Source of the DNA: Thioalkalivibrio sp. AKL19
Lineage (GTDB): Bacteria; Pseudomonadota; Gammaproteobacteria; Ectothiorhodospirales; Ectothiorhodospiraceae
Direction of reading: 5' to 3'
Length of the DNA stretch: 64,000 nucleotides
Assembly (NCBI RefSeq): GCF_000420165.1
Contig: NZ_ATUK01000013.1
Span: forward strand, 124,001-188,000
Below, piece by piece: positions 19,852 through 63,032 of this stretch. The notes under the pieces are model-generated. The model worked only from the letters and a program-made list of their open reading frames with translations. It was not told the DNA's origin and searched no databases. Position 1 is the first letter of the stretch, and each line of letters opens with the position of its first letter. A program made the position numbers and the translations under genes.

Positions 19852-22107
19852 TCAGGTCCGGCCGGTGCCTGCAGAGGCGGGCAGGGCGGGTGGCAGCCCC
19901 TGCGAGAGTGGGGCGGGGGCTCCGAGGTAGTAGCCCTGAGCGAAGTTGAATCCCAGGTCCCGGACACGCCTGAGTTGTTCCGCCGCTTCGATCCCTTCCG
20001 CCACGGTGGTGTAGCCCGCATCGGCGATCATTTGAACCAGACTCTCGACGATTTGATGCTGGTCCGGGGAATCCAGGGAACGTATCAGGCTGATGTCGAA
20101 CTTGACCGTGTCCACGGGCATGGATGCGAGGTAGCGGAGGGATGAGTAGCCACTGCCAAAATCGTCGAGGGCAACCTGAAAACCTTGCTGGCGAAGCTGC
20201 TGGAGGTTCTCCGTGGCCTGCCCGATCTCCGTGATCAGGGCAGTCTCCGTGACCTCGAGGATGATCTGCCGGTCCTGCAGGAAGGGCACGAACGCCTCCA
20301 TCCACTGGGCGATTCCGGAATTCACGACGGTGGGGCCGGAGAGGTTGATCGAGATGCCGAGGCCGGCCGGGATTTGGGAGGTTCGCAGGTCCCGGAGAAT
20401 GCGATTCAGTATGGCCCGGTCCAGGTCGACCTCCAGGCGACGCGCCTCGACGACGGGAAAGATATCGGCCGGGCCGATGACTTCGTCCATGTGTTCGATG
20501 CGCAGAAGGGCCTCGACATAAGAGGCATGACGGTCGTCGAGTGCGATAACCGGCTGGTAGCTCATGCGAATCCCGGTTCCCCGGGTCACGGCCTCGTACA
20601 CGGCATTGTTGATCCAGTTCGAATAAAGCCCCTGCGTATCCTTCGCCAGTTCCGGGGTGAATATCACGACATGCGAGGACCCCGGGCGCTTGGCCTTGTA
20701 CATGGCAACGTCAGCCTGCCACTGCATAGCCAGAAGAGACGCCTCGTCGTTGCCAGGCGCGACGGCCATGCCGATGCTGACCTTGATCGGCTCCCGCACC
20801 CCGAAACGGTTGAAATCGGTCATCCGGATCCGCTCCAGGCAACGCTCACCCAGGCTCCGGGCGCCCGATTGGTCGCAGTCGAGGAGGATCGCCGCGAATT
20901 CGTCGCCGCCGATGCGGAACAGGTGTTCCCCGTCCCGCAGGACCTCGTCGATGTTGCGCGCCACAGCCTGCAGGACCGCGTCACCCACCGGATGACCATA
21001 GCTGTCGTTAATGGCCTTGAAGTGATTGATATCGAACAGGGCAAAGCACACCGGGTAGGTGTGGCGCGCGGCCAGTCGCGGAAGGGTGTCCCAGTATTCG
21101 TCAAAGGCCCGGCGGTTGCGCACACCGGTGAGGGCATCATGGTGCGCGATACGCCAGAATTCGCGGTTCTTCTCCTCGAGGCTCGAATGGACGTCCTGGA
21201 GCTGGGCCTGGTAGGAGTTCAGCGACTCGCGGATCTTCTCCGTTTCCGCGATGGGCAATACCCCGCCGACACGTTCCAGCACCAGGCCTCCGGCGCTTTT
21301 GCGAAGCCGGTCGATATGGCCGGAAATGTGGCGCAGCGGGCGCACGATCAGATAAACGAGCGTGGCGAACAGGGCGAGCGTAATGATCCCCAGGATGCCC
21401 CCGAGATTGATTACGGCCCCTGAGAGTAGTTCCTCCACCTGGTCGGCCATGGGGTTGGGGCGAAGATCGAACCGGGCGTGCCCGACGAGATCGCTCGCCG
21501 GGATCGCGTGCTGCTCGCCAAAATCGAAGCGGATGGATTCGGGATCGATAAAGCGGAACACATGTCCCTCGCGCAGGGCATCGAGAAACCGGCTCTTCAG
21601 GCCGACGAAGCCCGGCGGCGCCTGGGCCCCATTGATCGGCGGGATTGCCTCGATGACCATCAAAAGCGGCTCTGAGTCGCCCCGCACCGCACGTGGATCG
21701 GGAGGCGGAAGGTCAATCATCCCGGGCAAATGGACCGTGTCCGAGTTCGCCAGGGCGACCCCCTCATGGTCATAAACCTGGGCGTCCAGGACCCGGTCGG
21801 CCAGAATCCCGGCCTGGTGCATGCGGTGATTCTTCCAGTAGCCATAGTACTGCGGGGTGCCGAGCTGCTGGCGCACCTCTTCCCAGCGGGCGAATCGGGA
21901 TGCCTGTTGTGCCGCCTGCGTGCGGACGCGCTCCAGCGCGTTGGCAAGCTCCTGACGCGCGGCCTCGCGAGCACTTTCGTGGATCTCCCCGCGCAGTTGG
22001 TCGACCTGGTGCCAGGTGTAGAGTCCGAAGCCGGCGAGCGTGACGAGGGCAACCGCCGCCAGCAGGAGAGCGTAGTGCGTGATGGAAGGGATGCGCGTTC
22101 GGATCAT
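19852..22107 (-). CDS. Sensor GGDEF-EAL protein with CHASE4-like periplasmic domain
   Basis: 751 residues. One membrane helix at about 10-30, a ~200-residue periplasmic part (ARWEEVRQQLGTPQYYGYW; CHASE4-like), a second helix near 237-260, a HAMP-like linker (VRPLRHISGHIDRLRK), a GGDEF domain (IGGDEF) and an EAL domain. The I-site position reads RDGE, i.e. RxxE, a near-miss to RxxD. EAL residues are present: EALLRIE, NLSGPTV, EVTETAL, DDFGSG, KFDISL, AEGIE, QGY. The start ATG overlaps the stop of the upstream hydrolase gene as ATGA, so the pair is translationally coupled. The likely output is c-di-GMP control in answer to a periplasmic signal, perhaps one made or removed by the hydrolase. Confidence 0.9.
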   Translation of the reverse strand: MIRTRIPSITHYALLLAAVALVTLAGFGLYTWHQVDQLRGEIHESAREAARQELANALERVRTQAAQQASRFARWEEVRQQLGTPQYYGYWKNHRMHQAGILADRVLDAQVYDHEGVALANSDTVHLPGMIDLPPPDPRAVRGDSEPLLMVIEAIPPINGAQAPPGFVGLKSRFLDALREGHVFRFIDPESIRFDFGEQHAIPASDLVGHARFDLRPNPMADQVEELLSGAVINLGGILGIITLALFATLVYLIVRPLRHISGHIDRLRKSAGGLVLERVGGVLPIAETEKIRESLNSYQAQLQDVHSSLEEKNREFWRIAHHDALTGVRNRRAFDEYWDTLPRLAARHTYPVCFALFDINHFKAINDSYGHPVGDAVLQAVARNIDEVLRDGEHLFRIGGDEFAAILLDCDQSGARSLGERCLERIRMTDFNRFGVREPIKVSIGMAVAPGNDEASLLAMQWQADVAMYKAKRPGSSHVVIFTPELAKDTQGLYSNWINNAVYEAVTRGTGIRMSYQPVIALDDRHASYVEALLRIEHMDEVIGPADIFPVVEARRLEVDLDRAILNRILRDLRTSQIPAGLGISINLSGPTVVNSGIAQWMEAFVPFLQDRQIILEVTETALITEIGQATENLQQLRQQGFQVALDDFGSGYSSLRYLASMPVDTVKFDISLIRSLDSPDQHQIVESLVQMIADAGYTTVAEGIEAAEQLRRVRDLGFNFAQGYYLGAPAPLSQGLPPALPASAGTGRT

Positions 22108-22985
22108 TGCGCCTGTTGCCTTTGGAGGGCCCACTCGATCTCGTCCAGCAGGTCAAACTCGTGCAACTGATCGAAGAAGTGATTGGCGCCGTCGACAATG
22201 CGAACCTCCGCACCATGCTGTCGTAAGGTCTCGATCCATTCCAGGTCGATCCGGTCATCGCCACTGCCCGCAATGAGCGTGGACGGAACGCCGATCGACT
22301 GGAAGGCCTGATCGGTGCGCTGCTTGTCCCAGTCGTAGTAGGAAAGGTATGCCGCGGGCGTGGTGACATACTCGTGACAGAAACCCAGGGCGAATTTCTC
22401 CAGCCCGGGATCGTTGCGGGCAAGGGCCGCACGGGCGCGGGCAGCATGTTCGGGGGATTCAAAAGCGACTTCGCCGTACCCGAAAAACGTCACACTGATA
22501 AAGATGGCATATCCCACGGGGGCTCCCGGGGAGTGAGCAAGGTAGTCCAGCAGGTTCACGCTGCCGGCGCTGTGGCCGATCAAGACGGGTTCCTGACCGG
22601 TTTGTTCGTGGAGCCATTCGACCCACGTCGCGATTTCATCCCGTGTCTGCGGCATGGAATGGGTGTGCACGGCCTCGCAGGGCAGGCTGGCGGTGCGCCG
22701 GTCGATACCGAGTGTCAGGCTGTGGGTCAGGACACTGTATCCCGCGTCGGCGAGCGCGGTCGCGAGACGGCGTACCGTGGGGAAATGATGGGTCTGCAGA
22801 AAACCATGCTGGATCAGGATCGCGGGCATGTCCGGGTCGCCGGCCCAGTACGCCGCTTCAGCGGAATCCCCGGACGGCATCTGCAGGGTCACGGATACTT
22901 CTTCGCCACTTGCGAACGCCGGGCCCAGGCTCAACAGGGTTACGGCCATAAACGCCACCGCGCTTCGCAAACACCATCCGGACAT
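22104..22985 (-). CDS. Secreted alpha/beta-hydrolase
   Basis: 293 residues with a signal peptide (hydrophobic 8-22, likely cleavage after AFA at 26). The alpha/beta-hydrolase features are HGF oxyanion loop (60-62), nucleophile elbow GHSAGS with Ser139, a probable acid Asp in GSGDDRIDL (~245) and His in DGANHFFDQ (~266). The substrate is unknown; an ester, lactone or acyl compound in the periplasm is possible. It is coupled (ATGA) to the GGDEF-EAL sensor gene, and a perfect FNR/ANR box lies about 110 bp upstream, so the pair may be switched on under low oxygen. Confidence 0.8.
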   Translation of the reverse strand: MSGWCLRSAVAFMAVTLLSLGPAFASGEEVSVTLQMPSGDSAEAAYWAGDPDMPAILIQHGFLQTHHFPTVRRLATALADAGYSVLTHSLTLGIDRRTASLPCEAVHTHSMPQTRDEIATWVEWLHEQTGQEPVLIGHSAGSVNLLDYLAHSPGAPVGYAIFISVTFFGYGEVAFESPEHAARARAALARNDPGLEKFALGFCHEYVTTPAAYLSYYDWDKQRTDQAFQSIGVPSTLIAGSGDDRIDLEWIETLRQHGAEVRIVDGANHFFDQLHEFDLLDEIEWALQRQQAQ

Positions 22986-25581: not shown

Positions 25582-27549
25582 ATGAATTTCTTCGAGCATC
25601 AGGACCGGGCGCAGCGTCGGACCCGCTGGTTGCTGTTCCTGTTCGGTCTGGCCGTGCTGGCGATCGTGCTGGTGATGAATGCGATCGTGCTGGCGCTGTT
25701 CGGCCAGGCCGAGCCGGTGGCGGCGGGCGAACCCTGGCTGACCCGGGACTTCCTGTCCCGCAATGTCGGCGTCATGGTCTGGACGACCGTGCTGACGGTG
25801 GGGCTGATCGGGCTGGGCAGTCTCTACCGCACCCTCGGCCTGCGCGATGGCGGAGGCACCGTCGCCCGCGAACTGGGCGGGACGCGCGTGGACGGGGACA
25901 CCCGCGACCCATTGCGGCGGCGCCTGATGAACGTAGTGGAGGAGATTGCCATCGCCTCCGGGGTGCCGGTGCCCGAGGTCTATGTGCTGGAGCAGGAGGC
26001 GGGCATCAACGCCTTCGCGGCCGGGTACTCACCGGATGACGCAGCCATTGCCGTGACCCGGGGAGCGCTGGAACAGCTGGATCGCGACGAGCTGCAGGGG
26101 GTGGTGGCACACGAGTTCGGGCATGTCCTGAACGGCGATATGCGCCTGAACATTCGCCTGATGGGCATGCTGTTCGGGATCCTGGTGATGGCCCTGATCG
26201 GCCAGCGCGTGCTGCTCGCCATGCGCCTGTCACGCAACAACCGCAATGCCGGCGGCATCGTCGCCGCGGGTCTGGCATTGATGGTGGTGGGTTATATCGG
26301 GCTGTTTTTCGGGCGCTGGATTCGCGCATCCGTCTCGCGCCAGCGGGAATACCTCGCGGATGCCTCGGCCGTGCAGTTCACGCGGCAACCGGATGGCATT
26401 TCGGGTGCCCTGAAGAAGATCGGTGCGGGGCAGACGGCGCTGCGCGCGGATACCGAAGAGGTCGGGCACATGCTGTTTGCTTCCGGGGCGCTGGGGCAGA
26501 TGTTCGCGACGCATCCGCCGCTGGTCCGGCGCATCCAGGCGATCGAGCCGGGGTTCGATCCGGAGGAGCTGGAGACGATCCGCGAGCAGATGGAGAAGGA
26601 TGCGCAGACCCGCCGTACGGAACAGGAGGCCCGGGCCGAGGCCGAGGCGCGCGACCGCAAGCCGGCGGCCGAGCCCGGCAACCTGTTTCTGAACCCGGGG
26701 CAGCTGATGGAGAACATTGGCGATCCGGGGCTGGCGCAGATCCTCGGGGCCGGACTCCTGGTGGCGGCGATGCCCGGGCCGCTGGAACGCGCCGCGCATT
26801 CCGATGCCTGGGGTGTGGAGGTCCTGCTCTATCTGTTGATCAGCGCCGATGCCGAGGTGCAGGACCATCAGCTGCTGCGCATTGCCGCGAGGCGGGGCGC
26901 CGAGAGTGAATCCCGGGTGCGCACGCTGCTCGATGCCGAACCAGAACTGCGCCCGGACCTGCGGATCCCGCTGCTGGAGATGAGCTTCCCGGTCGTGCGC
27001 CAGCGCCCGCGCGAGGAGCGTCAGGCGCTGGAAACGCTGATCGACGAGCTGATCCGCGCCGATGGCCGGGTGTCGGCCTTTGAATATGCCACGGGGCGCC
27101 TGCTGCGGCGTCAGCTTCGCGATCTGGATCAGCCCGCGCGTTCCCGCCCGGGCGGGCGGCAACGTCTGGATCACCTGGCCAGCCATGCCCGGGACGTCCT
27201 CGCCGTGCTTGCTCACCACGGCCATCCGGACAATCCCGAGCAGGCGCGGGCGGCCCTGCACTCGGGGCTCGTCGCCCTCGCGGTCGCGGATCCGGACGAT
27301 GACGGGATTGCGGCCGCGCTCGAGGGGGCGGCCGATGCGTCCACCTGGGCCGACGGCCTCGATCGCATACTGGAGGCACTCGATGCCCTGCGCCCGGCCG
27401 ACAAGCAGCGTCTGGTCACCGCCATGCTGGCCACGATCACCCATGGGGGAGAGACGGTGATCGCCGAGGTGGAGTTGTTGCGGGCGATCGCTGCGTCGCT
27501 GCATGTGCCGTTGCCGGTCGCGGAGATGCCTGCGGCCGAAGCGGAGTAG
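25582..27549 (+). CDS. M48-family membrane metallopeptidase with long C-terminal extension
   Basis: 655 residues, far longer than HtpX (~290). Residues ~1-320 are an M48 protease: helices near 17-40 and 63-83, zinc motif HEFGH at 177-181, further helices near 194-215 and 222-247, and a REYLADASAVQ segment supplying the third zinc ligand. The region from ~370 to 655 has no membrane helix; a stretch with LIDELIRADGRVSAFEYATG recalls TerB-like acid-Gly helices, but this is only a suggestion. It directly follows lemA and would act in membrane-protein or stress proteolysis. Confidence 0.88.
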   Translation: MNFFEHQDRAQRRTRWLLFLFGLAVLAIVLVMNAIVLALFGQAEPVAAGEPWLTRDFLSRNVGVMVWTTVLTVGLIGLGSLYRTLGLRDGGGTVARELGGTRVDGDTRDPLRRRLMNVVEEIAIASGVPVPEVYVLEQEAGINAFAAGYSPDDAAIAVTRGALEQLDRDELQGVVAHEFGHVLNGDMRLNIRLMGMLFGILVMALIGQRVLLAMRLSRNNRNAGGIVAAGLALMVVGYIGLFFGRWIRASVSRQREYLADASAVQFTRQPDGISGALKKIGAGQTALRADTEEVGHMLFASGALGQMFATHPPLVRRIQAIEPGFDPEELETIREQMEKDAQTRRTEQEARAEAEARDRKPAAEPGNLFLNPGQLMENIGDPGLAQILGAGLLVAAMPGPLERAAHSDAWGVEVLLYLLISADAEVQDHQLLRIAARRGAESESRVRTLLDAEPELRPDLRIPLLEMSFPVVRQRPREERQALETLIDELIRADGRVSAFEYATGRLLRRQLRDLDQPARSRPGGRQRLDHLASHARDVLAVLAHHGHPDNPEQARAALHSGLVALAVADPDDDGIAAALEGAADASTWADGLDRILEALDALRPADKQRLVTAMLATITHGGETVIAEVELLRAIAASLHVPLPVAEMPAAEAE

Positions 27550-27604: not shown

Positions 27605-27691
27605 GGGGGCGTGGCGGAACTGGTAGACGCATCGGACTTAAAATCCGCTGGCCGCAAGGCCGTGCCGGTTCGATTCCGGCCGTCCCCACCA
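27605..27691 (+). tRNA. tRNA-Leu (anticodon TAA)
   Basis: 87 bases, class II with a long variable arm. The acceptor GGGGGCG pairs with CGTCCCC (one G-T), the D-arm is GCGGAACTGGTAGACGC, the anticodon loop is CTTAAAA (anticodon TAA), the T-arm contains GGTTCGATTCC, and CCA is encoded. The anticodon stem has one mismatch at its outer end (T/C). It reads UUA and UUG. Confidence 0.95.
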
Positions 27692-27992
27692 GAAAAAACC
27701 ATCGGTGACCGTTGGCCCCGTTTTCGGGCCCTATTTGTGGCCACGCCCTTGTGACCAACATGTCACCTGAGCCTGGGCCGCCAGGTCCGCTGGCCGAGCG
27801 CTCTTCCTCGAACTACGGAATATCCCAGGCGTCCGGCATGCGGGAGCAGAACCGCAGGGTGGCCTTGTTCTTGTGCAAACAAGAGTTCCAGCCCCTATGC
27901 TCTGCTCTGAAGCTTTGTAGTTGAGTCGCACGCAGACGAGGCCGTGGGGCCGTGGTCACGAGCGTCGCATCTGTGTCGCCCGGGAGGCCCTG
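27692..27992. other. 301-bp region between tRNA-Leu and the QueC-like gene, no gene recognised
   Basis: Short frames on both strands lack support. GC content falls toward the QueC-like gene. The hairpin GGCCCCG-TTTT-CGGGCC (about 27714-27731) may end the tRNA transcript. No copy of the tRNA 3' end (a possible att repeat) was found here or behind the QueC-like gene. Confidence 0.4.
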
Positions 27993-28763
27993 ATGAGCCG
28001 AAATCGGACAGCAATGATCGATATCCTGTGGACCGGGGGATGGGACTCGACCTTCCGCGTGCTGGATCTGCTGGCACGGCACGAGGAAATGATCCAGCCA
28101 CATTACGTGCGGGATCGAGATCGTCGATCCTGGGAGATCGAGGAGGAAACCATCGAGGCCATCCGCGGACGTGCTAACCGCCGCTTCGGGGATCGAATCC
28201 TCTTACCGAAGCGGCGGGAGAAGTCCGATATCGAGGTGCCCGAACAGGTTAAGGCCTGGTTCCGTCCCCTGAACCGACAGTTCCGCCTCGGATCGCAATA
28301 CATGTGGCTGTCGCAGTACTCCATGAGCGAGACCGGCGGTCGGCTGGAACTCTGCGTTCATGTCGATGACAAGGCACACAAGGCCATAAGCTGGGCGCAG
28401 CGCAACAGACATAACAAGGATGCCACCGAGCTGGTGGAGGCGGTGGATGGTCTGCTGCTGTCGAGGTTTCAGTTTCCAATCCTGGACGCTTCCAAAATCG
28501 GAATGCAGCGGGCAGCAAAGGAGGCCGGCTTCGACGATCTTCTGGAGCGGACCTGGTTCTGTAATCAGCCCACCCGCGATGGGCGACCGTGTGGCTTTTG
28601 CGGTCCCTGCACCTGGACGCTTGAGGAAGGCCTGGGCTACCGCATTCCCGCTGACCGGCGTTTTCGCTCCAACCTCTACCGCAGGATCGGCCGCCACTTG
28701 CCTAGCTGGCGCCTCCGCCAGGCGTTTCTGCGCAGGGTCCGGGGGCAGGACGAGGTGCGGTGA
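27993..28763 (+). CDS. QueC-like PP-loop ATPase with zinc site
   Basis: 256 residues. A PP-loop (WTGGWDST, residues 13-20) of the SGGxDS type binds ATP. C190, C200, C203 and C206 in CNQPTRDGRPCGFCGPC have the C-x9-C-x2-C-x2-C spacing of the QueC zinc site. QueC turns carboxy-deazaguanine into preQ0; QueC-like proteins also occur in polysaccharide loci and in the QatABCD and type IV CBASS defence systems. None of their partners (queD/E/F, qat genes, TGT) is adjacent. The gene stands alone beside tRNA-Leu with visibly lower GC, suggesting transfer. GGGAGG precedes the ATG at 27993. Its true product is unknown. Confidence 0.7.
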   Translation: MSRNRTAMIDILWTGGWDSTFRVLDLLARHEEMIQPHYVRDRDRRSWEIEEETIEAIRGRANRRFGDRILLPKRREKSDIEVPEQVKAWFRPLNRQFRLGSQYMWLSQYSMSETGGRLELCVHVDDKAHKAISWAQRNRHNKDATELVEAVDGLLLSRFQFPILDASKIGMQRAAKEAGFDDLLERTWFCNQPTRDGRPCGFCGPCTWTLEEGLGYRIPADRRFRSNLYRRIGRHLPSWRLRQAFLRRVRGQDEVR

Positions 28764-28768
28764 CGCCA

Positions 28769-28787
28769 AGACGGAACGTTTCCGTCT
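28769..28787. other. Hairpin after the QueC-like gene
   Basis: Perfect 8-bp arms AGACGGAA and TTCCGTCT flank a 3-base loop, 6 bp past the stop codon. There is no T-run, so it is a weak or Rho-assisted terminator at best, or a protein-binding palindrome. Confidence 0.4.
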
Positions 28788-28878: not shown

Positions 28879-31131
28879 ATGAGCCCACCCCCGGACACGA
28901 CAAAAGAATCGGATGCCCGCGCGGCCACGTCTTCGACGCGGGTCCGAACCACCGAGCCTCATGTCACGGGCTCGGTGGTCGCGGCGCTTCTTGCGGGGGC
29001 ACTGTTCGCGTTGCTGTTCCTGGCGATCGACCACGGCTGGAAGCAGCAGATGGCCGAACGCTATCAGCAGACCCTCGCGACCGAGGCGAACAGCCTCCGC
29101 TCGCGCCTGGAAAGTGTGCTCAACGCCTCGGTGCACGCGACGATCGGGCTTGCCGCCTACGCCTATGTGCATCCGGAGCTGAACGAGGACGAGTTTGCCC
29201 GTGCCGCGGAGCGGCTGTATCGCGGGCAGCCCGAGTTGATTCGATCCCTGACCCTGGCACGCGGCGAGATCCTCGAACTGGTCTACCCGCGTGAGGGCAA
29301 CGAGGACGCTATCGGGCTCAATCTGGCCCGGCATCCGCAGCAGTCCGCCTCCTTCCATCGAGTGCTGGAGAGTCGCGAGACCGTCGTCGCAGGGCCCTGG
29401 CCGCTGGCCCAGGGCGGACGCGGGCTCCTGGTGCGGGCCCCAGTCCTGACCGAGCCGGAAGACGTATCCGCCCCGGGCAATCCATGGAGCCTGTCGAGCA
29501 TCGCGCTGGACTTCGACACCCTGTTGCAGCAGGCCGGCCTCGATCCGGGACCCGGCGGGCTGCAGGTGGCTCTGCGTGGCCGGGACGGTACCGGTGCCGA
29601 GGGCGAGGTTTTCTACAACCCCGGCGACATCGATGTCGCCGGCGCGCCGCTGGAATTCGATGTGAACTTTGCCGGCGGGCAGTGGGGCATGGTGGCCGAA
29701 CCGCTTCCGAGCCCGTCGGCGACGGCCCGGCCTGCGGCATGGTGGGTGCTGGGGGTGGTGGGAGTGGTGGCGGTCAGCGGCTACACCTTCCGCATCGGGC
29801 AGGGCATGCGTCAACGCCGGGACGCCCTGACGCGCTATCAGGCGCTGGTCAATCGCCTGGAGGACGCGACGCTGGTGGTCGCCGGGCGACGGATCCTGTG
29901 GGCGAATCCGGCCTTCGAGCGCATGACCGGGGTGGCGCCAACACCTGGCCAGCCCCTTTCCACGCTGGACGTGATCCACCCCGACGACCGTGCGCGCCTG
30001 CCGCCGGAGCTGGACTTCTCCAGTGCCGACGTGCCGCAGGAACCCCGTGGGCGCGAGATCCGTGTGCGGGTGTCGGGTGGGGACCAGCGTTTCCATCTGT
30101 TGCGCTGGGTGCCGATCGACTGGGAGGGGCAACGGGCTTCTCTGCTGAGTTTTGTCGATGTGCACGAAAATCGGATGCTGTTCAATGCCCTCAGCGAGGC
30201 GCGCGATCTGCAGGACGCGCTGTTCGAGGCCATGCCGGGTGATGCCCTCGTGATTGACGAGGACGGGCTGGTGTTGCGCGTGTTCGGGGAGGCCCGACGA
30301 GGCCGCGACCCGCGCACCTCTGCCGCGGGGCACAGCCTCCCGGAGCTGCTGCCGGACGAGGTGGCCCGGCGCTTCTCGAGTCTCGTGCAGCGGGCATTGC
30401 GCGAAGGCCGGATGCAGGAGATCCAGTACCGCCTCCACGCCAGTGCGTTTCACGGGGGTGACCCCGCCGTCGCGCCGGAGGAAACGCGCTGGTACGAGGC
30501 GCGCGTACGGCCGATTCACACGCCGTTTGAAGGCACGTCCGCGGTGGTCTGGCACGCCCTGGACGTGACCGAACGCAAAAAGCTCGAGGATCGCATGCAG
30601 GCCCTCGCCTGGGAGGATCCATTGACGGGGACGGCCAACCGCGCCGCGCTGGAGCGAGCGTTCCCGCGGCTGGCCGCGCGGGCGGATCGCAAGGAAGGCC
30701 AGCTGGCCCTGCTGTTCATCGATCTGGACCGCTTCAAGCCGGTGAACGACCAGTACGGCCACGCGGTGGGGGACGATCTGCTGCGCCAGCTGGCCCGGCG
30801 CCTGGCCGGCAGTCTGCGCCCGGATGACCTGCTGGTTCGTCTGGGGGGCGACGAGTTCATCGTGCTGAGTGCTCCCCTGCATCGGCCGGAGGAGGCGCGG
30901 GGCCTGGTGGAACGCCTGCGGCAGGCATTCAGCGCGCCCTTCGAGCTGCATCCCGGTCACATGGAGGCGGTGGAACAGTCCTTGTCCTGCAGCATTGGCG
31001 TCGCGTTCTATCCACGAGACGGCCAGCGTCTCGCGGACCTGATGATGGCGGCGGATCACGCGATGTATCGCGTCAAGGCCGCCGCCCGCGATGCCGTGGC
31101 CTACGCCTCGGAGGAACCGCCCGGGCCCTGA
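28879..31131 (+). CDS. CHASE-PAS-PAS-GGDEF diguanylate cyclase
   Basis: 750 residues. A helix at about 32-50 and another near 285-306 enclose a periplasmic CHASE-type domain (LRSRLESVLNASVHATIGLAAY, FARAAERLYRGQPEL, NGLARH-like core). Two PAS-like regions follow (~320-430, ~440-565) and a GGDEF domain from ~575. LGGDEF is intact and the inhibitory I-site RPDD (RxxD) is complete, so feedback-controlled diguanylate cyclase activity is expected. No EAL domain follows. Its 3' end overlaps the 3' end of mnmC by 31 bp on the opposite strand. Confidence 0.9.
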   Translation: MSPPPDTTKESDARAATSSTRVRTTEPHVTGSVVAALLAGALFALLFLAIDHGWKQQMAERYQQTLATEANSLRSRLESVLNASVHATIGLAAYAYVHPELNEDEFARAAERLYRGQPELIRSLTLARGEILELVYPREGNEDAIGLNLARHPQQSASFHRVLESRETVVAGPWPLAQGGRGLLVRAPVLTEPEDVSAPGNPWSLSSIALDFDTLLQQAGLDPGPGGLQVALRGRDGTGAEGEVFYNPGDIDVAGAPLEFDVNFAGGQWGMVAEPLPSPSATARPAAWWVLGVVGVVAVSGYTFRIGQGMRQRRDALTRYQALVNRLEDATLVVAGRRILWANPAFERMTGVAPTPGQPLSTLDVIHPDDRARLPPELDFSSADVPQEPRGREIRVRVSGGDQRFHLLRWVPIDWEGQRASLLSFVDVHENRMLFNALSEARDLQDALFEAMPGDALVIDEDGLVLRVFGEARRGRDPRTSAAGHSLPELLPDEVARRFSSLVQRALREGRMQEIQYRLHASAFHGGDPAVAPEETRWYEARVRPIHTPFEGTSAVVWHALDVTERKKLEDRMQALAWEDPLTGTANRAALERAFPRLAARADRKEGQLALLFIDLDRFKPVNDQYGHAVGDDLLRQLARRLAGSLRPDDLLVRLGGDEFIVLSAPLHRPEEARGLVERLRQAFSAPFELHPGHMEAVEQSLSCSIGVAFYPRDGQRLADLMMAADHAMYRVKAAARDAVAYASEEPPGP

Positions 31132-60873: not shown

Positions 60874-62223
60874 ATGGCGGTCCATCAACTGGCCGCCGGG
60901 GTCGATTTCGCGGCCCTGGCGCGGCGTTTCCCCGAACGCTATCCGCACCTGCTGGAGTCGGCCCTCATCGGGCAGGCTCCCGCACGCTTTTCCATCCTGT
61001 TTGCCTTTCCCGGGCGGACGCTTTCCAGTGCATCCGCGGACGATGTGCTCGGCGCACTGGATCAGGATCTCGCCCGGTCGCCGGCACTCGACGCTGATGA
61101 TGCCGCTCATGCCCATCTGCCCTTCCTAGGGGGGTGGTTCCTCTACGCGGGCTACGAACTGGCCTGGCACCTTGAACCGGCTCTGGGCCGGTGCCGGGGT
61201 GACCCATGGCTGCCGGACGCACTGGTGACCCGTTTCCCGGGCGCCCTGATCCATGATCACCATGAGGGCACGACCTGGTGGGTGGACGAGGAGGGAGTGC
61301 CGGCGCGGCGGGAGCAGGTGGAGTCCGACTGCGCGGCAGTGCGAGGCGCAGTGGAGGCCAGGAGCGAAGCGCTGCCCGGCCTTGCCCTGCGGGAAGAGCC
61401 CCCGGAACAGTACCTCCACGCGGTGCAGCGGGGGCTGGAATACATCCGGGCCGGCGATACCTTCCAGGTCAACCTGTCGCGGGAATGGCACGCCACGGCC
61501 CGCGCGGCGCTGGATCCGGCGGTGCTGTACGCGCGCCTGCGGGAGGCGAATGCGGCACCGTTTGCGGCCTGGCTGCAACTCCCGGGTGCGCATGTCATCA
61601 GTTCTTCGCCCGAGCGCCTGGTGTCGGTGGAGGCGGGCATGGTCGAGACCCGGCCGATCGCGGGGACGCGACGGCGGGATGCGAATGCCGAGGAGGACCA
61701 GCGCCTTTTCAGTGAGTTGACGTTCAATCTAAAGGAACGGGCCGAGCACGTGATGCTGGTGGACCTGGAACGCAACGATGTTGGACGGGTCGCCGAGACC
61801 GGGAGCGTCCGGGTGGCCGAATTGATGACCATCGAGAGCTACCGCCGGGTGCACCACATCGTGTCCAGCATAGTCGGACGCCTGCGTGCCGGGACCACGG
61901 CGGCCGATGTCCTGCGCGCGGTCTTTCCGGGGGGCACGATTACGGGCTGCCCGAAGATCCGCAGCATGCAGATCATCCAGGAACTGGAACGACATGCCCC
62001 ACGCGGCGCCTATACCGGCGGTTGCGGATACGTCAGCCGGCATGGGCGCATGGACACGAATATCCTCATCCGTACCCTCGTGGTGCGCGGAAACGAACTG
62101 CGCTTCCGGGCCGGCGCCGGGATCGTCGCGGACTCCGATCCCGAGCGCGAACTGGAGGAGACACGGCACAAGGCACGTGGCCTTCTGGAGGCGCTCGGCG
62201 GCGCGAACGAGGACGTGGCGTGA
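60874..62223 (+). CDS. pabB: Aminodeoxychorismate synthase component I (PabB), PIAGT type
   Basis: 449 residues of the chorismate-binding family: GDTFQVNLSREW, SSPERLVS, NLKERAEHVMLVDLERNDVGRV, GGTITGCPK. With an amidotransferase (PabA, not here) it makes 4-amino-4-deoxychorismate for folate. The active-site segment is PIAGT at 261-265; E. coli PabB has PIKGT with a catalytic lysine, while TrpE has PIAGT. A group of PabB proteins carries the Ala form; the pabC neighbour supports PabB over TrpE. Confidence 0.88.
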   Translation: MAVHQLAAGVDFAALARRFPERYPHLLESALIGQAPARFSILFAFPGRTLSSASADDVLGALDQDLARSPALDADDAAHAHLPFLGGWFLYAGYELAWHLEPALGRCRGDPWLPDALVTRFPGALIHDHHEGTTWWVDEEGVPARREQVESDCAAVRGAVEARSEALPGLALREEPPEQYLHAVQRGLEYIRAGDTFQVNLSREWHATARAALDPAVLYARLREANAAPFAAWLQLPGAHVISSSPERLVSVEAGMVETRPIAGTRRRDANAEEDQRLFSELTFNLKERAEHVMLVDLERNDVGRVAETGSVRVAELMTIESYRRVHHIVSSIVGRLRAGTTAADVLRAVFPGGTITGCPKIRSMQIIQELERHAPRGAYTGGCGYVSRHGRMDTNILIRTLVVRGNELRFRAGAGIVADSDPERELEETRHKARGLLEALGGANEDVA

Positions 62224-63032
62224 TCCTGGTCAACGGAGAAGCGGAAGGCCGGATTGCGCCCCTCGACCGCGGTCTGTTGCTGGGCGACGGACTGTTCGAG
62301 ACCCTGCTTGTACGCGCCGGTCGACCCCAGTTATGGGCGTATCACCGCGACAGGCTCTGGCGGGGCCTGCAGCAGCTGGGTTTCCCGGAACCGGACGAGC
62401 CACAGATCCTGGCGGAGGTCGCCCGGGTCGCCGTGCCGGGCAGCTGCCTGGTGCGGCTGACGCTGACCCGTGGCGAGGGGCCGCGGGGCTATGCGCCGCC
62501 GGAGAACGCGACCCCCACACGGATTGTGAGCGGGGGGGCGCCCATTGAGGAAACACCACCCTACGCGCGGGCACCGTTGATCGTGGGCCATTCGGAGGTC
62601 CCGGTGGGCGTGAATCCGGCCCTGGCGGGGCTTAAGCACACCAGTCGCCTGGAACACGTGATGGCGCGACGCAGCTGGCAGCCGGGATGGGACGAGGCGA
62701 TCCTCGACGATGCCCTTGGGCGCGTCGTGAGTGCGACCCAGGGCAATCTGTGGCTGCGCGAAAAGCGCCGCCTGGTGACGCCGCCGGTCGAGCAGTCCGG
62801 GATCGCCGGGACCCGGCGCGCCTGGATACGGGATCACGCGGCCCGGTTCGGGTTCGAGGTCGTCGAGGCCTATCCGGACCCGGTCCGTTTGGAACAGGCG
62901 GATGGCCTCTACGTCACAAGTGCGCGCCTCGGTTTGACCCCGGCGCGACGGGTCGAAGCGGACAAGCCGGGGCCCGCGTGGCAGGATGATCCGCTGTATC
63001 CAATGGGAATCGCGTTGCATGAAGCGGATTAG
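62220..63032 (+). CDS. pabC: Aminodeoxychorismate lyase (PabC)
   Basis: 270 residues, PLP-dependent fold type IV. Catalytic Lys in GLKHTSRLEHVMAR, DRGLLLGDGLFET near the N-terminus and VTSARLGLTPAR near the end. Makes p-aminobenzoate and pyruvate. GTG start overlaps the pabB stop (GTGA), so translation is coupled. Confidence 0.93.
   Translation: MILVNGEAEGRIAPLDRGLLLGDGLFETLLVRAGRPQLWAYHRDRLWRGLQQLGFPEPDEPQILAEVARVAVPGSCLVRLTLTRGEGPRGYAPPENATPTRIVSGGAPIEETPPYARAPLIVGHSEVPVGVNPALAGLKHTSRLEHVMARRSWQPGWDEAILDDALGRVVSATQGNLWLREKRRLVTPPVEQSGIAGTRRAWIRDHAARFGFEVVEAYPDPVRLEQADGLYVTSARLGLTPARRVEADKPGPAWQDDPLYPMGIALHEAD

Follow-up and report, generated by a model that had tools for sequence, protein, structure and literature searches.

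A QueC-like gene inserted alone beside tRNA-Leu in Thioalkalivibrio represents a family of putative amide-forming PP-loop enzymes

The gene studied here is located in a window of 64,000 nucleotides from Thioalkalivibrio sp. AKL19 (contig NZ_ATUK01000013.1), which is the whole stretch of DNA that was analyzed. It occupies positions 27993–28763 on the forward strand and encodes a QueC-like protein of 256 amino acids with a PP-loop and a zinc site, as supported by the list of open reading frames, the motifs, the predicted structure and the dN/dS ratios. A Shine-Dalgarno-like GGGAGG (27982–27987, forward strand), recognized by eye, lies 5 nt upstream of the ATG at 27993, the N-terminus has about the same length as in the two nearest homologs, and no sigma-70-like promoter match was found for the gene. 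A gene for tRNA-Leu(taa), identified with ARAGORN at 27605–27691 on the forward strand, is located 301 bp upstream. On either side lie two forward-strand genes that serve as syntenic anchors among related genomes, one at 25582–27549, which we take to encode an M48-type membrane peptidase, and one at 28879–31131 (starting at 28975 according to one gene caller), which is presumably a GGDEF-type signaling gene. The reading frame, its Cx9CxxCxxC site, its low GC content and its tRNA neighbor had all been pointed out in the original prediction, and were confirmed by the list of reading frames, ARAGORN and the composition analysis.

The gene is an insertion and stands alone at this tRNA site. Alignment with relatives that lack the segment places the inserted DNA at 27692–28777 (forward strand), with the QueC-like gene as its only gene. 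The left end falls at or just past the 3′ end of the tRNA-Leu gene, where the identity with four relatives stops at CCACCA, and the right end is approximate, between 28777 and about 28814. Within the genus, 30 genomes were searched with the anchor protein encoded at 25582–27549, and 21 of them gave matches (E-value of 1e-50), some of which represent a second paralog, and 10 of the matched anchor loci made up the sample for the synteny comparison. No QueC-like gene was called after tRNA-Leu in any of these 10 related genomes, and the GGDEF-type gene is the next one after the tRNA in eight of them. At locus L106 no GGDEF-type gene was called, and at L103 an ORF with a GIY-YIG domain (PF01541; 3142–3450) intervenes at the same tRNA-Leu site, which suggests that the site may accept single-gene inserts. 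The absence of the insert between the same anchors in 10 of 10 relatives supports the foreign origin that had been proposed for the gene. An attL/attR pair was considered and rejected, since only the tRNA copy itself and short repeats of 11–15 nt were found: at up to three mismatches, neither an attR-like repeat nor a second copy of the tRNA end was present in the window, and no other repeats than the short ones were seen around the insert. There was also no integrase among the called neighbors of the gene.

Base composition was compared among the genes called in the window with products of 120 amino acids or more, 49 in number with the gene itself counted in. Its GC content is 61.2% against a mean of 66.9% (z of -2.0, with two called genes lower still), its GC3 value of 73.5% against 85.0% (z of -2.9) is the lowest of all, and its codon usage ranks second by divergence. 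The most divergent codon usage among the 49 genes tested was observed for the gene at 62220–63032. Composition alone is weak evidence for transfer, because the gene at 22104–22949 has almost the same GC3 value; the insertion is better shown by synteny.

Two close copies of the gene were identified. The ortholog in Thioalkalivibrio versutus AL 2 (L022; 78% identity) is located 268 bp after a tRNA-Leu gene and is followed by an integrase-like C-terminal fragment, a weak match to PF00589 (19.6 bits, under the cut-off of 27.1), and then by the contig end. In a MAG (L038; 71% identity), a truncated tRNA at the start of the locus, which was read by eye as tRNA-Asn and was not reported by ARAGORN, precedes the copy by about 345 bp, and transposase fragments (PF05598, PF01610) follow downstream of the copy. 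A tRNA 3′ end precedes all three close copies, two of which are near contig ends. The dN/dS ratios (NG86) were 0.18 between the window gene and T. versutus, 0.14 between the window gene and the MAG, and 0.18 between T. versutus and the MAG, indicating that the gene is constrained by purifying selection.

A scan of genome contigs for homologs recovered two loci only. Within the order, 12 of 47 genomes contained homologs. The class sample contained matches at E-values below 1e-60 in three of 369 genomes and weak matches only (2.8e-7 or worse, most of them short and located in the cysteine region) in another 34; of the 27 weak-match loci that were examined, 17 contained an ORF whose loop and cysteine motif are of the QueC type. 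Four of 398 genomes matched at an E-value of 1e-8 in the phylum sample. Four families, picked because the first sample held a match, gave matches in 31 of 198, 10 of 201, 16 of 151 and one of three genomes. The family genes for which genomic context was collected amount to 84, an uneven sample that excludes the matches G796, G977, G1186, G1235, G1253 and G1303. Paralogs were observed in the genus g504, with three to five in each of four genomes (G861, G887, G911, G930) and, in two cases (L185, L189), as divergently oriented neighbors; the g504 loci are L177, L185, L189, L192–L196, L199, L200, L202 and L204–L206.

Three motifs characterize the window protein, all on the forward strand. Motif and profile alignments identify the PP-loop WTGGWDS (residues 13–19; 28029–28049) as the counterpart of SGGxDS in QueC and place the zinc site FCx9CGxCxPC (28560–28610) at C190, C200, C203 and C206, spaced C190-x9-C200-x2-C203-x2-C206 (Cx9CGFCGPC). 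The motif alignment further revealed GxQYxWL (residues 100–106; 28290–28310), a family motif in the region of VPxRN in QueC. The patterns WT[GS]G[WFY][DA]S, PxY, [GA]xQY and Cx7-9CxxCxxC each occur in 84 of 84 members. Residues W13, T14, G16, S19, P36, Y38, R44, S46, E50, Q102 and Y103 are invariant, as are F189, C190, C200, C203, P205 and C206 around the zinc site, and D18 is kept in 83 members, the PP-loop aspartate being replaced by alanine in one (L190). No further cysteine column is conserved in at least 90% of the 84. The QueC motifs SGGxDS, YxQxHxxE and YPDC were found in none of the members and a loose VPxRN pattern in four, not including the window protein; all four motifs were present in 11 of 11 QueC controls. 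The 84 make up a coherent and apparently uncatalogued QueC-like family of predicted ATP pyrophosphatases, and a literature search by titles and the starts of abstracts, mostly outside subscription journals, retrieved no published description of it.

The QueC ancestry that was originally suggested for the protein is borne out as a distant one. The Pfam QueC model (PF06508) gave 19.5 bits for the window protein, below the gathering score of 22, and matched 13 of 15 rows at an E-value of at most 0.1 in a set that included two true QueC-type rows. NCBIfam returned nothing relevant for the window protein; across 18 family members its QueC model matched three (best E-value of 6.1e-5) and its QatC model one (0.0099). 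An hhalign comparison with the QueC profile gave a probability of 96.4 (E-value of 1.3e-9) over 191 columns, and with the QatC profile 77.2% over only 50 columns, with 26% identity there. Sequence searches against solved structures yielded no significant match, the best being QueC (3bl5) with an E-value of 0.12 when a profile was used. A structure predicted with AlphaFold2 from 18 aligned sequences (pLDDT of 91.6, pTM of 0.86) had no Foldseek match in the PDB at an E-value of at most 0.001, and the best hit was YcfA (1.5e-3) rather than QueC. VIA-align placed Cap9 (9nto; Z of 12.3, 2.9 Å over 160 residues), QueC (3bl5; 10.6) and QatC (9y02; 10.2) in the lead, followed by YcfA (10.1) and the nitrile synthetase ArtA (9.5), where rows within 1 Z of each other are tied; TtuA, NcsA and ThiI were among the structural matches listed. 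The BFVD structure search was of little informative value: its 18 matches at an E-value of at most 0.001 carried the names of deazaguanine synthases, an ATPase, an adenine alpha hydrolase and one queuosine protein, or were unnamed or uncharacterized. In a tree of 104 rows, inferred with a quick search, rooted on the non-family rows and with Cap9 left out, the 84 members were separated from 20 QueC, QatC, cluster-4-like (three control sequences) and paralog rows with an SH-aLRT value of 97. The proteins from the window, T. versutus and the MAG formed a clade (100) with no supported nearer kin, in particular none with support among the members from polysaccharide loci.

The window protein shares with QueC (3bl5) the PP-loop Rossmann fold, a zinc site of four cysteines at the corresponding position and distant homology, but it lacks SGGxDS, YxQxHxxE, VPxRN and YPDC, and its gene is not beside queD or queE. 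Cap9 of type IV CBASS (9nto) is the best structural match and has a similar core; it keeps the YxDC and RN motifs and adjoins a CD-NTase (PMC13329287), whereas the window protein lacks the H(x)4YxDCxxxF and RN motifs and no CD-NTase was recognized by eye among its neighbors. QatC (9y02, 9y01) resembles the window protein in its QueC-like core, the replaced deazaguanine motif and a similar CGxCxPC end, but is about 400 amino acids long with large N- and C-terminal extensions and Cx19CGxCxxRR, all of which are missing from the protein of 256 amino acids, and no QatA, QatB or QatD of a qatABCD system was seen beside the gene. The WbpG-type N-acetyl sugar amidotransferases, cluster 5 of PMC13329287, are likewise PP-loop enzymes of polysaccharide loci, but with CxxCx6CxC and SGGxDSxY instead of Cx9CxxCxxC and WTGGWDS. 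The nitrile/amide synthetases ToyM/QueC, ArtA/NitB and PesC activate carboxylates or amides with ATP (PMC13060819), and this is the chemistry that we propose here. Cluster 4 QueC-like proteins accompany a PfkB kinase; by eye, neither a PfkB neighbor nor CH(x)5CxxCxGCxK was found for the window gene. Plasmids of Rhizobium/Agrobacterium (L235:691–5053, L236:643–5054) carry a short QueC-like gene in company with a carbohydrate kinase, a TIR gene and an HhH-GPD/DNA lyase, arrays that resemble cluster 4 of PMC13329287 and may represent a defense setting.

The genome has a canonical queC adjoining queE (L036, 8917–10300; queE was named by eye), and the window protein is only about 20% identical to this QueC. 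The window gene is therefore not the housekeeping queC, an identity that was rejected, and the concern that it might be the only queC of the genome falls away. Its neighbors, read by eye, include no queuosine gene, in agreement with the original prediction. A second divergent QueC paralog of 213 amino acids was also observed in the genome (L035:9010–9651), apparently among housekeeping genes, with an SGGIES loop, no YPDC, 107 bits to PF06508 and a PADLOC QueC match of 7.7e-23.

The genomic contexts of the relatives provide hints about the substrate. We defined a polysaccharide locus as one with at least three specific matches within 8 kb, and a borderline locus as one with one or two; ABC-, AMP-ligase- and phosphatase-like matches were left out of the count as non-specific, and the gene caller was retrained for the GC-rich loci of group f13. 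By these definitions, 26 of the 84 genes are located in polysaccharide loci, four are borderline and 54, including the window gene, have no such context, a count that measures likeness among loci rather than independent annotation because the reference proteins were taken from the same loci. The control gave one specific polysaccharide match in 205 genes of 13 loci, the window included. Homologs are thus not confined to polysaccharide loci, and this objection to the original prediction does not apply. The numbers in loci, borderline and without context were 10, 2 and 0 for f185, 2, 2 and 40 for f13, 0, 0 and 10 for f171, and 14, 0 and 4 for the Ectothiorhodospiraceae-like group, a label that rests on two named records. 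No specific polysaccharide gene was present within 8 kb of the copies in the window, L002, L022 and L023, the four that are solo or beside a tRNA in the window gene's own group. As independent annotation, exosortase-A-associated (XrtA-type) models scored above the cut-off at L025 (TIGR03097) and L028 (TIGR03098 and TIGR03099), and neighbors in polysaccharide loci also match ATPgrasp_ST, PGA_cap and Polysacc_synt_3. At L023 (11636–13799), a distance of about 440 bp separates the family member from a CAP12/Pycsar TIR gene (PF10137; PADLOC TIR effector models), and an ORF for a group II intron reverse transcriptase is close by.

We tentatively favor, at somewhat less than even chances, the hypothesis that the window gene encodes an ATP-dependent, carboxylate-adenylating and amide-forming enzyme that acts on a substrate other than 7-carboxy-7-deazaguanine (CDG), likely an acid of a surface glycan, and that was carried to the tRNA site as lone cargo. 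The substrate and reaction that we infer for the window protein are as follows. Since the PP-loop and the zinc site are kept, ATP would be bound at WTGGWDS and used to adenylate a carboxylate (or amide) on a non-CDG substrate, after which the attack by ammonia or an amine would yield an amide, with the zinc site in a structural role. The amide is the economical guess, and a nitrile could be formed in a second round, as in QueC. The substrate class would most likely be an acid or acyl group destined for a glycan of the cell surface, which we propose because the 26 relatives occur in exopolysaccharide loci with flippase, ATP-grasp, acyl-carrier and AMP-ligase genes. The enzyme from the window may work by itself on a glycan whose synthesis is encoded at another place in the genome, and its gene may be the lone cargo of a tRNA-integrating element. 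The glycan reading is weaker for the window gene, which has no polysaccharide gene nearby.

The main rival is that the same adenylation chemistry is directed at a free small molecule, such as an amino-acid-derived acid, with polysaccharides as one use among several, which we consider possible but on balance unlikely. It is suggested by the f13 loci, where 21 of 44 genes, from eight genera, diverge from a gene pair for a Haem_oxygenas_2 protein (“iron-containing redox enzyme”) and a glyoxalase-fold protein (L070, L167–L176, L178–L184, L186–L188), and in 17 of the 21 a class III aminotransferase gene lies no more than four genes away; the Pfam names of the three clusters are based on one representative each. 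One of these loci (L175) has two polysaccharide-type genes nearby too. The oxidase was matched in 25 of 198 f13 genomes: 21 orthologs with 65–100% identity all adjoin a family member, and four distant oxidases (43–44%) occur in f13 genomes without one. The divergent QueC-like gene and the oxidase/glyoxalase pair may form a small biosynthetic unit, and none of the 10 f171 members has a specific polysaccharide gene nearby, as would also suit a small-molecule substrate. On the other hand, the same oxidase query found nothing when 28 genomes from other groups were searched, that of the window included, which makes the oxidase unlikely as a general partner, and the pair was rejected in this role. 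Furthermore, the 21 pair-linked genes fall within one clade of 22 (SH-aLRT of 98), so that the linkage may have been inherited once. A different PP-loop reaction, for instance sulfur transfer or the modification of tRNAs or bases, could be imagined from YcfA as the top Foldseek match in the PDB and from TtuA, NcsA and ThiI among the structures listed, but all four share the general PP-loop fold, the QueC zinc pattern is present in 84 of 84 members with no additional cysteine column at 90% conservation, and PMC13329287 ties sulfur transfer to a different cysteine motif in LarE; we regard it as quite improbable. That the gene is the leftover of a decaying island, without a present function, would be consistent with its solitary position and with the lack of an integrase, an attR-like repeat and a sigma-70-like promoter match, but seems very improbable given the low dN/dS ratios in three pairs and the intact motifs.

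Deazaguanine chemistry and defense, both put forward in the original prediction, are minor possibilities. A Cap9-like ligase that transfers CDG onto a protein or another amine, perhaps as a stand-alone defense, is improbable in our view. Its appeal is that Cap9 is the closest solved structure, that the setting is mobile, that a TIR gene is located near the family member at L023, and that PADLOC gave weak matches among relatives (at an E-value of at most 1 in a set of 15 rows, QueC matched six and QatC four, two rows being QueC and a paralog). However, in both Cap9 and QueC the base is read by the tyrosine and aspartate of YPDC, which stack on it (PMC13279940), and the E. coli QueC variants Y35A, R99A and Y131A are inactive (PMC13329287). 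The absence of YPDC and YxQxHxxE from 84 of 84 members makes CDG an unlikely substrate and, together with the missing VPxRN in the window protein, leaves the deazaguanine proposal unsupported. The loss of YPDC is not fatal to a defense function, because QatC also lacks the motif, its reaction being described as unresolved in PMC13279940. Nor did a role in defense receive support from the searches: PADLOC matched no family at an E-value of at most 10 for the window protein and none for its three nearest neighbors or for the L069 proteins, no neighbor with an MG-G/T N-terminus was seen by eye beside the gene, and no homologs were found in phages, plasmids or IMG/VR. The gene was accordingly rejected both as a known defense gene and as a phage or plasmid gene, and the earlier remark that no known defense partner is adjacent agrees with the PADLOC result for the three neighbors. 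What remains of the predicted stand-alone QueC-like modification enzyme is the distant ancestry, the solitary position and the foreign origin, but not deazaguanine or defense.

Our findings concern a protein of the QueC kind and not a new fold. A survey of the superfamily published in 2026 (PMC13329287) was built on members of PF06508, and the motif set of the family fits none of the seven clusters with motifs described there (1–6 and 9), clusters 7, 8 and 10 not being detailed in the survey. With this family, the idea that an active site of the QueC type was turned to another acid becomes open to testing, two kinds of genomic context give leads to the substrates, and caution is called for against labeling every QueC-like gene outside queuosine operons as deazaguanine-related or defensive. 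A broader hypothesis, speculative and rather doubtful as a whole, is that the family is a branch of the QueC superfamily, so far undescribed, which moved off deazaguanine to make amides or nitriles on other molecules, with at least two roles, in exopolysaccharide tailoring and in work with the oxidase/glyoxalase pair. In some hosts, including the one studied here, the gene would then travel as a one-gene tRNA cargo with the potential to change the cell surface, and thereby the sensitivity to phages, in a single step.
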